Positions 607 through 55,690 of a stretch of DNA of 64,000 nt are shown here, one piece after another. This DNA is from Eggerthellaceae bacterium (GTDB lineage: Bacteria > Actinomycetota > Coriobacteriia > Coriobacteriales > Eggerthellaceae): positions 1 to 64,000 of the forward strand of contig JAFRJC010000088.1 of the NCBI GenBank assembly GCA_017432445.1, in the 5' to 3' direction. The position numbers and the translations under genes were made by a program. The stretch's first letter is position 1. Each line of letters begins with the position of its first letter. The notes under the pieces are model-generated. The model saw only the letters and a program-made list of their open reading frames with translations. It did no database searches and was not told the DNA's origin.

Positions 607-2139
607 CTATTGGTCCGAACCACCGAACACGATGTTCTCTTCGATCGTCGGCAGCTCCTCGCGAGTCTCATGCCAGCACTCGGTCGCGGGCATGCCCGGG
701 AATTTGTCCGCCACGTACACCGGATCAAGACCCTGACGCTTCTGCTCCTTGTAGTCTTCGAGCGCCATGAACGCCCACTTGCCCAGGATAAAGATGACCA
801 CGATGTTGATGAATGCCTGGATTCCCATGAAGATGTCGGCCAGGTTCCAAGCGAGGGTCAAGGTTAGCTGAGCGCCGAAGAACACGACGATGGCGCAGAC
901 GACGCGGAATATGTTCAGCGCTGCCTCGCTCTTGGTGATGAACCTGAAGTTCTGCTCGGCGTAGAAGTAGTTGCCGACAAGGCTGGAGAACGCGAACGCA
1001 AAGATTGCTACGGTCATGAAGATGATGCCCGCATCGCCGAAGGCATAGAGCATCGTCTGCTGCACGAGCGGCATGTTCGTGAGCCCATCGGCCGCGCCGC
1101 CGAAGGGGGTGAGATCCATATGACCCTGCACGAAGATCATGATCATGACGGCCGAGCAGGTGCAGATGACGATCGTGTCGATGAAGACTGACAGCGTCTG
1201 GACGAGGCCCTGCTTGACCGGGTGTGACACGCTGGCCGCTGCAGCGGCGTTAGGAGCAGAGCCCATACCAGCTTCGTTGGAGAACAGGCCGCGCTTGATG
1301 CCTTGAACGATCATCGAGCCGGCGAAGCCGCCCGCAAGCGACTGAACGTTGAATGCCTCGCTGAAGATGAGCCCGAATACGGCAGGCAGCGCGCTGGCGT
1401 TCATGACGGCCATGATGACCGCAAGCACGAGATACAGGATAGCCATGGCAGGCACGATGGCCGAAGTGAGGAAGCTGATGCGGTGCGTGCCGCCGAACAG
1501 CACGAACGCGAACACGATAGCCAGCAGGATGCCGATGACGAGCGGGATACGCGTCTCGAAGTAGCCCGGCGCACCGACCTGGCCGGCGACGGCCTGGTTG
1601 TAGAAGTACTCGATCGACGAGCTCATGTTATAAGTCTGCAGCCCATTGAAACCCAGCGCGAAGCAGAAGATAAGGGCGACTGCGAACACAATGCCCAACC
1701 AACGCTTGCCCAGCGCCTGCTCGATGTAGTAAGCCGGACCGCCGCGGAACTCGCCGTTGTCGCCGCGCACCTTCCAGATCTGTGCCAGCGTGGATTCGAC
1801 GAATGCCGACGAGCCGTTGATCAGCGCCATGATCCACATCCAGAACACCGCGCCCGGGCCGCCCACGGCGATGGCCGTGGCCACGCCCGCGATGTTGCCC
1901 GTACCCACGCGGGAGGCCGTGGAAACCATCATGGCCTGGAACGAGGAGACAGATCTCCGGCCGGCAGTGTGCTTCTTCTCCGTGATGGCGGTGAACATAT
2001 CCTTGATATGCGTGAACTGCACGCCCTTCGTGCGGATGGTGAAGTAGATACCCGCCGCAATCAGCAGAAACACCAGAAAATAGGTGTACATGTAAGTGTC
2101 GATTGTGTCGGTGATGTTAACAAGCGCGTCCAAATTCAT
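607..2139 (-). CDS. Alanine/glycine:cation symporter (AGCS family)
   Basis: 510 residues, full length for the AGCS (DagA/AlsT) family, which imports alanine or glycine with Na+ or H+ through the cytoplasmic membrane. About ten to eleven hydrophobic helices are visible. The family signature GTGNIAGVATAIAVGGPGA lies near residues 98-116, and the motif GLFSNEAGMGSAPNAAAA near residue 280 is the usual AGCS substrate-site segment. The C-terminus is a charged cytoplasmic tail. The ATG at 2139 is preceded by AAGGAAGGGG, a good ribosome site. A TATAAT box lies about 28 bases upstream of the start, implying a very short leader. Alanine, glycine or D-alanine specificity is not resolvable from sequence alone. 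Confidence 0.93.
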   Translation of the reverse strand: MNLDALVNITDTIDTYMYTYFLVFLLIAAGIYFTIRTKGVQFTHIKDMFTAITEKKHTAGRRSVSSFQAMMVSTASRVGTGNIAGVATAIAVGGPGAVFWMWIMALINGSSAFVESTLAQIWKVRGDNGEFRGGPAYYIEQALGKRWLGIVFAVALIFCFALGFNGLQTYNMSSSIEYFYNQAVAGQVGAPGYFETRIPLVIGILLAIVFAFVLFGGTHRISFLTSAIVPAMAILYLVLAVIMAVMNASALPAVFGLIFSEAFNVQSLAGGFAGSMIVQGIKRGLFSNEAGMGSAPNAAAAASVSHPVKQGLVQTLSVFIDTIVICTCSAVMIMIFVQGHMDLTPFGGAADGLTNMPLVQQTMLYAFGDAGIIFMTVAIFAFAFSSLVGNYFYAEQNFRFITKSEAALNIFRVVCAIVVFFGAQLTLTLAWNLADIFMGIQAFINIVVIFILGKWAFMALEDYKEQKRQGLDPVYVADKFPGMPATECWHETREELPTIEENIVFGGSDQ

Positions 2140-2228: not shown

Positions 2229-2377
2229 GGTCCCAGACGGCGGGGAGTAAGCGATTCTGCAAGCACATGCTTTAAACCATTCAAATGTTTAGCCGAAGCC
2301 AAGCGAACTCCCCGCCGCCCGGGACCACAAACGAATGCTGCTGCCCGCGATCTTTAACGCCAAATATGGATATGGCG
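2229..2377. ncRNA. Structured element, copy 1 (conserved core, variable closing stem)
   Basis: This lies in the 358-base gap between the divergent symporter and DUF975 genes. A long closing stem pairs 2229-2234 with 2321-2326 and 2238-2248 with 2307-2317. It encloses about 58 bases containing GCGATTCTGCA, ACCATTCAA and CGAAGCCA. A second hairpin sits at 2358-2377. Copy 2 at 55203-55351 shares the enclosed core almost base for base, but its closing stem has a different sequence with the pairing kept. That pattern favours a folded RNA over a DNA repeat, which would keep its ends. The transcribed strand is not decided: the symporter promoter lies beyond it on the minus side, and no clear plus-strand promoter is seen. 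It is not recognised as a known riboswitch. Confidence 0.6.
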
Positions 2378-2497
2378 GCGGCAAGCGCCGTTGCAATCAG
2401 AATTTAAGGAAACGGAAAGGTTAATCGACAGGTTGGGGAAAGGTGCGCCTCGTAACCTAGGCTCATGAAGAAATGTTCGAGCGTTAGGAGGCGCACG

Positions 2498-3823
2498 ATG
2501 TGGACAAGAAAAGAGCTTAAAGACAAGGCGAAGATATCCTTCAGAGCGAACTACTGGAAGGCGGTGTTCGTCGCGCTGATCGTGGTGGCGATCAGCGTGT
2601 GGGCGAGCGGCCCTTCTGGGGGACTGACTGCTTCGATACCGGCGGTCGACCCGACGCCTTCGATTTCGGAGTATTCGCCCGATAATGTAAACGTCGATGT
2701 CAACAACGGCCAGATCTCGGTCGACGTAGGCGGCAGGGACGGCGGCACGGTTCACGTGACCCTCGACCCCGAGGACATCGAGAGCCTTGACGAACTCGAC
2801 GAGATGATCGATGACATCGCGCACGATGGCGAGACCTTCCAGAGCATCGACGCGACCACACCGGGCCTGGTTCTCGCCGGCCTCTCCATGGGAATGATCT
2901 TGTTGGTCATCATCGCGATAGCACTCGCCGTGTATGCATTCGTCTTCAACCCGCTCGAGGTCGGCTGCATGCGCTTCTTCTTGCGCAACCTCAACCAGCG
3001 TGCCGAGGTCAAAGAAGTTGCCTTCGCCTACGACAACAACTACCTCGAGTCGGTGAAAACCCTGTTCCTGCGCGATTTGTTCATCCTCTTGTGGAGCCTT
3101 CTGCTCATCATCCCGGGCATCTACAAATCTTATGAGTACCGCATGATCCCGTACCTGATGGCCGAAGATCCCACAATGACCAAGGACCGCGCGTTCGCCG
3201 AGAGCAAGCGCATGATGGACGGCCAGAAGTGGAACGCGTTCGTGCTCGACCTGTCCTTCCTGGGTTGGAACATCCTGTCGGCGCTGACGCTGGGCATCCT
3301 GGGTGTCTTCTACGTGAGTCCCTATCAGGCGCAGACAAACGCAGCCCTGTACGAGAAGCTGCGCTACGGCCTGCCGGCGCCCGAGCAGGCAGCCCAGCCC
3401 ACCCAGCCTTGGCAGACGCCTTACGGTACCGCTTCCGTTCAACCAACGCAGGCAACGCAAGTGGCTCCATTCGCCCCGGCGGCAGTCCAGCCGACACAGA
3501 CGATGCAGCCGATGCAGACGGCTCCCATGACGACCGTCGCCATCGAGCCGACGCAGCAGATGCAGACGGTGCCCACAGCAACCGCAAACGCAGCGCCAGT
3601 GCAGGAGACGCAGCAGATGCAGGTCGCGCAAACGGTTCCCGTTGAGATCGCCCCACCCGCAGATGCCCAAACCGCCACCATGCCGGTTATCACTCCTGCG
3701 GCCCAACCTCCTATCCCCCCGTTCGCGGCAGTCGGATACGAGCCCGATGACGAACTTGAAGAGGCAGCGGAAAGCGAAGGCATCTCCGCAGAACCCGAAT
3801 CGTCCGATTCCACCGAGGCGTAA
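2498..3823 (+). CDS. DUF975 family membrane protein with Gln/Pro/Thr-rich tail
   Basis: 441 residues. The start is taken at ATG 2498 because AGGAGG ends seven bases before it and because the resulting N-terminus MWTRKELKDKAK matches how DUF975 proteins begin; an in-frame ATG at 2465 lacks a ribosome site. Residues 1-280 hold the DUF975 region: a helix at 15-35, an extracellular-looking acidic loop, and several more helices. From about residue 295 the chain is low-complexity with repeated TQ and MQ dipeptides, then an acidic end (residues 410-441). DUF975 is an integral membrane family without an assigned reaction. The tail could be a cytoplasmic interaction region. The gene stands alone upstream of a two-component pair, 81 bases away. 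Confidence 0.8.
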   Translation: MWTRKELKDKAKISFRANYWKAVFVALIVVAISVWASGPSGGLTASIPAVDPTPSISEYSPDNVNVDVNNGQISVDVGGRDGGTVHVTLDPEDIESLDELDEMIDDIAHDGETFQSIDATTPGLVLAGLSMGMILLVIIAIALAVYAFVFNPLEVGCMRFFLRNLNQRAEVKEVAFAYDNNYLESVKTLFLRDLFILLWSLLLIIPGIYKSYEYRMIPYLMAEDPTMTKDRAFAESKRMMDGQKWNAFVLDLSFLGWNILSALTLGILGVFYVSPYQAQTNAALYEKLRYGLPAPEQAAQPTQPWQTPYGTASVQPTQATQVAPFAPAAVQPTQTMQPMQTAPMTTVAIEPTQQMQTVPTATANAAPVQETQQMQVAQTVPVEIAPPADAQTATMPVITPAAQPPIPPFAAVGYEPDDELEEAAESEGISAEPESSDSTEA

Positions 3824-3904: not shown

Positions 3905-4588
3905 GTGGCATACAAGATTCTCATCGCAGACGACGACAAGGACATTCGAAGCGTGCTTGCACTGTACCTGGAAGACGCCGGGTACGAAGTGGTCGAGGCA
4001 GCAAACGGCGCCGAGACGCTGCGCGTGCTGCAGGATCAGGATATCGACTTATGTCTGCTCGACATAATGATGCCCGAGCTCGATGGTTACCAGGTGCTCA
4101 AACTCGTGCGCCAAACCGATGATGTTCCCATCATCGTGGTGTCGGCCAAAGGCCAGGATTCCGAGAAGATCCTCGGCCTCAACCTGGGGGCCGACGATTA
4201 CCTGGTTAAACCCTTCAACCCGCTGGAAGCTGTCGCGCGCGTGAACACGAACATCCGACGGGCGAAGGGAATCGTACCCCAGCAGCATTCGGCGGCAGCG
4301 CTTGTTTGCCGCGACCTAGAGCTCGACCGCGAATCATGTGTCCTCACCCGCGGCGGACAGCCCATCTCGCTCACATCGGCCGAGTTCCGCATCATGTCCA
4401 TGCTCATGGAGCACCCGGGGCGCGTGTTCACCAAGCAGCAAATCTACGAGCAAGGATGGGGCGAAGACTACATAGCCGCAGACAACAGCGTCATGGTGTG
4501 TATGAGCAAGCTGCGCTCCAAGTTAAGCGATGATCCGCAAGCCTACATCAAGACCATCCGCGGATTGGGATACCGGTTGGAGAAATGA
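3905..4588 (+). CDS. OmpR-family response regulator
   Basis: 227 residues. The start chosen is GTG 3905 (MAYKILIADDDKD), preceded by GAAAGAGAT; the reading frame continues upstream to 3836, but that stretch lacks receiver-domain character. The receiver domain spans residues 1-118, with the acidic pocket at D9-D11, phospho-acceptor D53 in LLDIMMPE and the conserved lysine K102 in YLVKPF. The winged-helix DNA-binding domain (residues 130-225) contains the usual SMLMEHPGRVFTKQQIYE and IRGLGYRLE elements. It overlaps the following histidine kinase by four bases (ATGA), so the two form one operon and very likely one signalling pair. The regulon cannot be inferred from neighbours. Confidence 0.92.
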   Translation: MAYKILIADDDKDIRSVLALYLEDAGYEVVEAANGAETLRVLQDQDIDLCLLDIMMPELDGYQVLKLVRQTDDVPIIVVSAKGQDSEKILGLNLGADDYLVKPFNPLEAVARVNTNIRRAKGIVPQQHSAAALVCRDLELDRESCVLTRGGQPISLTSAEFRIMSMLMEHPGRVFTKQQIYEQGWGEDYIAADNSVMVCMSKLRSKLSDDPQAYIKTIRGLGYRLEK

Positions 4589-53952: not shown

Positions 53953-55017
53953 TTACGCGATCTTGCACACCCAGCCGAAGGGATCCTCCGCTTCGCAGGT
54001 CTGGATGCCCACGAGCGTCTCGCGCAGCTTCTTCATGACCGGACCGCTCGTCTCGACGCCGTCGGGGAAGGCGACGTCGACGCCTTCGGCTTCGATCTTG
54101 CCCACGGGGCTGATGACGGCCGCGGTGCCGCACAGACCGCACTCGACGAAATCGCCGTTGGTGACCTCTTCGAACTTCACGGGACGCTCGACCACGTTCA
54201 TGCCGAGCACGTCACGCGCCACCTGCACGAGCGAACGGCGGGTTATGCTGGGCAGGATGGAGTCGGTGTGCGACTGAGGCACGACCAAGGTGCCCTCTTT
54301 ATCGACGAGCAGGACGTTGGCGCCACCCGTCTCCTCGACGTAGGTGCGGCTCTCCGAATCGAGGTACAGATTCTCGGCGTAGCCGGCATCGTGGGCCTCA
54401 GTTACAGGCAGCAGGCTCATGGCGTAGTTCAGGCCGGCCTTGATGTTGCCCGTGCCGCGCGGGGCAGCGCGGTCGTACTTGGAGATGGTCAGCTTCACGG
54501 CCGTGTCGCCGCCCTTGAAGTAAGGTCCGACCGGCGTAACGAAAATGCGGAACTGGTACTCGTCGGCAGGCTTCACGCCGATGACGTTGCCCGTCGCGAC
54601 CATGAACGGACGAATGTAGAGCGTGGCGCCCGAGCCGTAGGGCGGCACCCAAGCGGCGTTCGCGGCGACGACCTGCTTGACGGCCTCGACGAACTCGTCC
54701 TCGGGGAAGGCAGGCATGACCAGGCGGCGGGCCGAATCGGCCATGCGGCTTGCGTTCAGGTCGGGGCGGAAGCACACGATGGAGCCGTCTGCGGTGGTGT
54801 AGGCCTTCAGGCCCTCGAAGACCTCCTGGCAGTAATGGAAGATCCCGGCGTCCTCGCTCAGGGTGAGCGTATGGTCCTCGGTCAGATAACCCTTTTCCCA
54901 GGCCCCGTCCTTGTAGTTGCTCACATAGCTGTAATCGCAAGGCATGTAGTTAAAGCCGAGATTACCCCAATCCAGGTCTTTCTTTTCCAAAGTTATCATC
55001 TCCTTACCTGTCGTCAT
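53953..55017 (-). CDS. ilvE: Branched-chain amino acid aminotransferase
   Basis: 354 residues, as for class IV transaminases of the BCAT type II group. The PLP lysine lies in GNIKAGLNYAMSLLP (near residue 207); other hallmarks are EVFEGLKAYTTADG (near 65), RPDLNASRM (near 87), EETGGANVLLV (near 243) and CGTAAVISPVG (near 317). It transfers amino groups between glutamate and leucine, isoleucine or valine. Starts at 55017 and 54999 (MITLEKKDLDWGN) are both possible; the first is kept because AAGGAG is too close to the second. It is monocistronic, and the second copy of the structured element lies 185 bases upstream. Confidence 0.93.
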   Translation of the reverse strand: MTTGKEMITLEKKDLDWGNLGFNYMPCDYSYVSNYKDGAWEKGYLTEDHTLTLSEDAGIFHYCQEVFEGLKAYTTADGSIVCFRPDLNASRMADSARRLVMPAFPEDEFVEAVKQVVAANAAWVPPYGSGATLYIRPFMVATGNVIGVKPADEYQFRIFVTPVGPYFKGGDTAVKLTISKYDRAAPRGTGNIKAGLNYAMSLLPVTEAHDAGYAENLYLDSESRTYVEETGGANVLLVDKEGTLVVPQSHTDSILPSITRRSLVQVARDVLGMNVVERPVKFEEVTNGDFVECGLCGTAAVISPVGKIEAEGVDVAFPDGVETSGPVMKKLRETLVGIQTCEAEDPFGWVCKIA

Positions 55018-55202: not shown

Positions 55203-55351
55203 CCAGCCAGGCGGGCGGCCGCAGGGAGTGAGGGCGATTCTGCAGACACAAACTTTAACCATTCAAGTGTTTGGTCGAAGCCATGCCCGAATCCCCCTAC
55301 GGCCGCCCGCCCGGCTGGCCAAGCCGCAATAATAACGGCGAACATTGCCGT
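55203..55351. ncRNA. Structured element, copy 2
   Basis: This lies in the 425-base gap between divergent ilvE and the dlt operon. A closing stem pairs 55203-55208 with 55313-55318 and 55210-55221 with 55300-55311 (arm GGCGGGCGGCCG), with one bulged base on each side. The enclosed core holds GCGATTCTGCA, AACCATTCAA and CGAAGCCA as in copy 1, and a separate hairpin ACGGC/GCCGT follows at 55335-55351. The orientation relative to flanking genes is the same as copy 1. The rest of the gap (55018-55202 and 55352-55442) shows no further structure that I can support. Confidence 0.6.
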
Positions 55352-55442: not shown

Positions 55443-55685
55443 ATGCAGCACATCATGCGTCTCACGCTATCCCTTGTCATTGCGCTCGTCACCTGCCTCG
55501 GCGCCTTTGCGCTCACAGGTTGCGGCGGTTCCAGCTCTGCGAGCAGCGCCGCGAGCGAGCAGGCCACCTCGGCGCAAGCCGCCGAATCTTCGGACAGCGC
55601 CGCTTCCGACGAGGCAACCGACGAAGCTGACGACGAGGAGCAGGACAACTGCTACGGTGACGACCTGCCAGCTCGGAAGTCGTAG
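55443..55685 (+). CDS. Small lipoprotein at head of dlt operon
   Basis: 80 residues from ATG 55443 (GAGGAG upstream); an ATG at 55416 is less well supported. A signal peptide with lipobox ALTGC (cysteine near residue 27) is followed only by a Ser/Ala, then Asp/Glu-rich tail, ending CYGDDLPARKS. It has no globular domain. dltA starts five bases after the stop, so it belongs to the dlt transcript. In Firmicutes this place is usually held by dltX, a membrane peptide with a different signature, which here is at the operon end. Confidence 0.7.
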   Translation: MQHIMRLTLSLVIALVTCLGAFALTGCGGSSSASSAASEQATSAQAAESSDSAASDEATDEADDEEQDNCYGDDLPARKS

Positions 55686-55690
55686 CGCCC

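Follow-up and report, generated by a model that had tools for sequence, protein, structure and literature searches.

A dispersed palindromic element with a near-invariant core and a freely varying stem in Coriobacteriia and Clostridia

Two hairpins found in a 64,000-nucleotide stretch of an Eggerthellaceae genome (contig JAFRJC010000088.1, positions 1 to 64,000; here called the window) belong to what is apparently a large and undescribed family of elements that is scattered in gut and rumen bacteria. When the related places that BLAST found in the same genome were oriented and lined up, they shared one design, namely a copy-specific stem of 20–30 bp followed by a near-invariant core of 52–54 nt. 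Over the family the stem is 20–35 bp long and may have any sequence, provided that the arms pair. The explanation that we consider best, with confidence somewhat short of even, is a REP-like dispersed palindromic DNA element that would act as a single-stranded hairpin and have its two arms rewritten together.

The two copies in the window

Copy 1 was delimited by BLAST and covariance matches and by its fold, and lies at positions 2229–2326 of the plus strand, the strand on which GCGATTCTGCA is read. Its copy-specific left stem arm, GGTCCCAGACGGCGGGGAGT (2229–2248), pairs with the right stem arm, ACTCCCCGCCGCCCGGGACC (2307–2326). Between them is the core, GCGATTCTGCAAGC...TTAGCCGAAGCCAAGC, with its apical loop (2251–2304), which has columns that are invariant in alignment A1 and is kept across classes. 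Copy 2 was found by the same means at 55203–55318, also on the plus strand. Its core, GCGATTCTGCAGACAC...TTTGGTCGAAGCCATGC (55234–55286, plus strand), is flanked by GG/CC pairs in place of a GA/GA mismatch. Both copies fold well compared with shuffled sequences, with z-scores of −5.2 to −8.2 for RNA of either strand and −5.8 to −6.7 for DNA.

Both copies are in divergent spacers. Copy 1 is between genes for a sodium:alanine symporter (607–2139, minus strand; PF01235) and a DUF975 membrane protein (2465–3823, plus strand; PF06161), and copy 2 is between a class IV aminotransferase gene (53953–55017, minus strand; PF01063) and an 80-aa ORF with a lipoprotein-like signal, called by script (55444–55686, plus strand). 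In congeners these genes are free of the element at the matching place, which is weak evidence for mobility as synteny there is poor.

An earlier note on this DNA had described two structured copies, and these are real; with 22 copies in the genome as a whole, the recurrence is far beyond chance. The end given for the first, 2377, was too far downstream. The three core words that the note listed as common to both copies all exist, with GCGATTCTGCA and CGAAGCCA in the invariant core and ACCATTCAA in the apical loop, where it is only moderately conserved. The note was also right that the closing stems pair while differing in sequence, as pairing is intact in both copies and the stem sequences are unrelated. 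A separate GC hairpin said to follow each copy did not hold up, as the two candidates fold no better than shuffles (z −0.5 and −1.4) and differ in sequence.

Architecture of the element

Members of the family are approximately 75–120 bp long. Described on the strand used in the earlier note, the core has the consensus 5' GC-GATT-CY-GCA ... GA-RG-MCNA-GC 3', with a small hairpin, P2, on top. From the outside in, the stem is followed by a GA/GA mismatch pair, which is swapped for GG/CC in copy 2 and in others, then by GC/GC, a 4x4 loop (GATT/MCNA), a two-pair helix (CY/RG), a GCA/GA loop and P2. Mean column identity over 16 copies is 0.96 and 0.93 in the two core halves, 0.70 in the apical loop and 0.51–0.54 in the outer stem. 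Among compact P2 loops, C-GNA-G triloops (GAA, GTA or GCA) predominate, a type that is very stable in DNA, and a GNRA tetraloop was seen only once.

Two unusual arrangements were encountered. The Clostridiales genome RGIG2713 contains three tandem cores with a 100-bp period (L126:2342–2571). A good stem of its own is present only for the first core, and neighbouring units here seem to share stem halves. Another repeat, which starts GTACGGGGGCAAGCT(A/G)AAGCTTGCC, lies within the loop of the element in two species, the one under study (genome G000; L018, C75 at about 21599) and a congener (G012; L094:14262–14436). In both, the loop of one dispersed repeat seems to serve as a site for the other.

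Distribution

When copy 1 was used to query its own genome with BLAST, about 17 related places were returned, on both strands. A covariance model (R1) found 22 copies in this genome, G000. Of the 15 genomes of the genus, G000 counted, 12 had matches, with 3 to at least 95 copies in each, and G001, G005 and G013 had none. A second model (R2) was positive in 56 of 298 genomes of the class, representing 14 of 124 genera. With it, five Clostridia genomes were seen to have 8–21 copies apiece, and an acidobacterial MAG to have one. In a pattern scan of 85,000 species genomes, a true relative was recognised by a long paired stem. Among the matches listed, relatives were in Eggerthellaceae, Collinsella, Enorma, rumen Clostridiales, Mageeibacillus and one acidobacterial MAG, and matches in other phyla had no stem.

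Rfam 15 has no family over the element in the window or in 10 loci with copies, and there was no more than a match below threshold to RF02455 (22 bits, threshold 80). Absence from Rfam of a family of this size and spread implies that a recognisable core, along with the protein presumed to partner it, has escaped notice in bacteria that are common in gut and rumen. A set of 3161 palindromic RNA candidates from human microbiomes has been published (PMC8040213, searched in its main text), and one of them may overlap the element. A separate repeat of approximately 190 bp was seen by the glycerate kinase gene in Collinsella (L306:4312–4506), and there are many per Collinsella aerofaciens-like genome.

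Covariation and comparison of orthologues

The two arms of the stem change in sequence together, which implies that the folded shape is being maintained in some way. Changes on both sides were seen at 25 of 35 pairs. Alignment A1 contains 117 two-sided cells, compared with 35.5 in shuffles, and none of 500 shuffles was as high; sliding the partners by 1–3 columns reduced the count to 21–35. For 40 distant relatives (alignment A3) the corresponding figures are 232 and 90, and again none of 500 shuffles reached the observed value. Covariation extends to the two-pair helix (CT/AG with CC/GG) and to P2.

In 13 orthologous comparisons, some of which have a sequence in common, the stems differ by 30 double Watson–Crick changes, 14 single changes to G.T, six other single changes and one other change, giving 30 two-sided versus 20 one-sided changes. 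The short Collinsella cores have 0–1 differences over 30–32 positions between orthologues, and the longer cores of G006 and G010, two species of the genus, differ at 2–12 positions, apical loop included. Stems that are free yet always paired, around a core that is almost unchanged, offer a natural test of pairing maintained by selection versus one arm copying the other. In two orthologous pairs (L245/L246 and L296/L297) the core has been inverted in place within its stem. This is a DNA event, of the kind that a palindrome would undergo by template switching or hairpin transfer. Two Collinsella loci, L330 and L329, have arms from different allelic types that pair incompletely, which may be due to recombination at the core, or to a MAG chimera or assembly error.

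From the covariation it follows that a folded nucleic acid is important, but not that the molecule is RNA. Such covariation is expected of a structured RNA, yet it is not specific to RNA as DNA hairpins would give the same pattern.

Position relative to genes

Using a simple script gene caller, the called copies in G000 and G012 are between genes. The genes next to copies are of unrelated kinds, among them Ca-ATPase, glycerate kinase, glutamine synthetase, FtsX and LeuA, which makes the question of a leader moot. A riboswitch or leader was rejected on this ground and because the orientation does not favour 5' leaders. Where a copy is near a stop codon, at a distance of up to about 100 nt (in one case 115 nt), it is usually antisense to that gene (33 of 41 copies; binomial P 1e-4). 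The antisense share is 13/15 in Clostridia, 9/10 at other loci and 11/16 in G000, the last not significant alone.

Clostridial copies lie directly against stop codons, and A-rich and T-rich feet are present in several stems, as expected if the element had inserted into the loops of existing terminator hairpins and the variable stems were old terminators. That origin is hardly credible, as it was refuted at both loci tested. At the first, in the Collinsella aerofaciens-like group, a copy is located after the SRP RNA gene, beyond its T-tract terminator, and element-free relatives have the terminator at this locus but no such stem. At the second locus, murF, the insertion came with its own stem.

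A copy also follows the 5S rRNA gene in G010 and G006. Pairs of copies are strongly oriented, with 17 minus–plus dimers versus one plus–plus and 34–138 bp between the copies; tandem copies also exist. At locus L309, where a convergent gene pair has two elements, a 21-bp inverted repeat, TTTTCGATTTGTTGCAGTTTG, was noticed between them (about 3985–4240). This is likely a bidirectional terminator that is separate from the elements.

Some copies are inside protein genes. One is within murF (Pfam Mur ligase) in both G006 and G010, where the frames are open (513 and 515 aa); most other murF genes of the genus are without the segment. The DNA surrounding the murF copy is approximately 93% identical in the two genomes, and the stem differs between them by compensated changes. 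A second copy that leaves the frame open is in a U32-peptidase gene of the same two genomes, and by an alignment of core types the murF and U32-peptidase genes read the core in equivalent frames. The elements account for additional stretches of peptide in proteins such as MurF.

Recent multiplication and the search for an enzyme

The copies differ greatly in apparent age. In G012, nearest-copy identity is up to 0.98 and the copies have exact common ends (ACGRA|GCG...CGC|GGNGGGAY), while in G000 it is at most 0.83. To judge from these sequences, the copies were recently multiplied in one species, G012, and those in G000 are old. That the old G000 copies and the Collinsella orthologues still keep the core implies that the element has a use beyond its own spread.

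One such use would be as a protein-binding DNA site, fixed rather than mobile, that extrudes as a cruciform and serves in chromosome organisation or supercoil relief at gene ends, as reported for REP/BIME. Intergenic copies mostly at the 3' ends of genes, strands that are equal in most genomes and vertical retention in Collinsella are consistent with this, but a fixed site does not explain copy numbers that run from 0 to at least 95 in a single genus, near-identical copies of recent date or insertion inside coding genes, and we regard it as improbable.

If the element moves, it would do so in trans. No autonomous copy was found, and L302 is the sole gene-bearing stretch between two elements that was inspected. 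In this Enorma-like genome (G113; L302:1284–3948), a minus–plus element pair surrounds an AT-rich foreign fragment in which a broken Cfr-like radical-SAM methylase gene and Tn916-like small ORFs were recognised by eye; the right-hand element interrupts an Xre-like reading frame. The fragment is an old mobile-element remnant.

Movement of a classical REP or REPIN by a RAYT (Y1 HUH) transposase is largely refuted and seems a very doubtful explanation. In forming inverted dimers, lying 3' of genes, occurring inside some genes and being spread over several phyla, the element does fit descriptions of REPs (PMC3733652), but the GTAG/CGTC tag is absent, the stem of 20–35 bp is free in sequence and the Y1 gene is missing from many element-rich genomes and nowhere near the elements. 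Specifically, no Y1 transposase genes were found in G000, G008, G332 or G324–G328 (the five element-bearing Clostridia tested), and no element was found within 1.5 kb of any of 39 Y1 loci scanned.

Ends typical of a MITE or DNA transposon were not seen, as outside G012 the terminal sequence varies from copy to copy. Inspection of flanks by eye, which had no exact empty site for comparison, revealed no target-site duplication, and near-identical genomes yielded no empty site with exact borders. Carriage by plasmids or phages was rejected, with zero plasmid matches and only weak matches to viral contigs (best 25.6 bits). The possibility that the stem arms act as guides to other sites was also rejected; in the DNA fetched from the element's own genome, the longest exact arm matches elsewhere were no longer than those of control 22-mers.

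RNA strand or DNA strand

If an RNA strand were selected, G.U should exceed A.C among stem mismatches. Outside G012 the numbers are similar (G.T 56 versus A.C 49). Within G012, after removal of a fixed column, there is a plus-strand excess (G.T 38 versus A.C 12), though these copies are interrelated. Together with the P2 loop types, the mismatch counts mildly favour single-stranded DNA; RNA is also possible.

A structured RNA would be found in 3' untranslated regions or short transcripts and dispersed by duplication, and could be bound by a protein or act in termination or mRNA stability, with the core as binding site and the stem as clamp. We consider this unlikely, though it deserves to be taken seriously. 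An invariant core and a covarying stem, seen both in old copies and in Collinsella orthologues retained by vertical descent, would be expected of it, and it accords with the antisense bias of stop-codon copies (33/41), the two copies after SRP RNA and 5S rRNA genes and the plus-strand G.T over A.C bias in G012. Against it, mismatches have no strand bias outside G012, and a transcript from the adjacent gene would be the minus strand, contrary to the G012 bias. The divergent spacers of both window copies and the copies within genes fit no single transcript position, core inversion is tolerated and GNRA tetraloops are few.

The earlier note had called the element a functional RNA and not a transposon, reasoning that a transposon would have conserved ends. 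The conserved core, the strongly covarying free stem, the lack of an Rfam family and retention in old and orthologous copies all bear out the importance of the structure. Setting RNA against mobility was too simple: up to at least 95 copies in a genome, recent multiplication in one species, oriented inverted dimers, in-frame genic copies and core inversion do not support that opposition, and identity as RNA is not supported by any G.U-over-A.C excess outside one species. The core is indeed fixed and the ends vary, except that within G012 the ends are constant. The note was right on the fold and its importance but too quick to exclude mobility.

Under the dispersed DNA hairpin that we prefer, the internal-loop core would be the recognition part and the stem below it would be free, reversing the plan of REP/REPIN. 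The core in the folded strand would be recognised by an enzyme or binding protein, and copies would enter beside the 3' ends of genes, favouring one orientation. Both arms would be rewritten jointly, with one templating the other during replication or hairpin transfer, and the same templating or transfer could occasionally flip the core. The spread of copies, the fixed core, the paired stem changes, the core flips, the oriented dimers and the copies in genes are observed and speak for this explanation; against it are the failure to find a mobilising enzyme or an exact empty site, the core kept in old copies and the G.T excess in G012. We tentatively propose that this is a new class of nucleic-acid element in Coriobacteriia and Clostridia, with an invariant internal-loop core and continually co-rewritten arms, which spreads, inverts and resides in frame within genes, served by a putative protein. 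In practice, such elements can mislead riboswitch and terminator searches.

Comparison with known systems

One close likeness is to the REP/REPIN/BIME palindromes of the GTAG and CGTC super-families. These are also dispersed, form inverted dimers, are mostly 3' of genes, include some intragenic units and are found in multiple phyla (PMC3733652). Oriented inverted dimers and a position downstream of genes are shared with the element. However, REPs are 20–40 bp, with family-specific stems of 5–13 bp and an unpaired terminal tag, and the GTAG types accompany RAYT genes, whereas here the inner core is fixed, the 20–35 bp stem is free and there is no association with a Y1 gene. The unpaired GTAG/CGTC tag is absent from the stem ends, which in G012 are ACGRA and GGNGGGAY. 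As the REP-defining features tested were not found, we class it as a dispersed palindromic element and not as a REP.

Intrinsic terminators likewise have a GC-rich stem by stop codons, and some clostridial copies have A/T-rich feet, but the GC-rich copies of Coriobacteriia have no T-tract, the invariant core is large and at the SRP locus the element sits 3' of the real terminator. In ERIC/RU elements and MITEs of enterobacteria the ends and the whole sequence are conserved, unlike the element, which has variable ends except within G012. Rickettsia palindromic elements (RPEs) are palindromes of approximately 100 bp that have been reported in frame inside protein genes, and are conserved in sequence along their whole length. 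The enterobacterial ERIC/RU and MITE repeats are described as palindromic, approximately 100–170 bp long and intergenic, with intragenic examples too (PMC2759123). RPEs and the present element are both palindromic and occur in frame within genes, and by these descriptions the element is set apart as one in which only the core is conserved.
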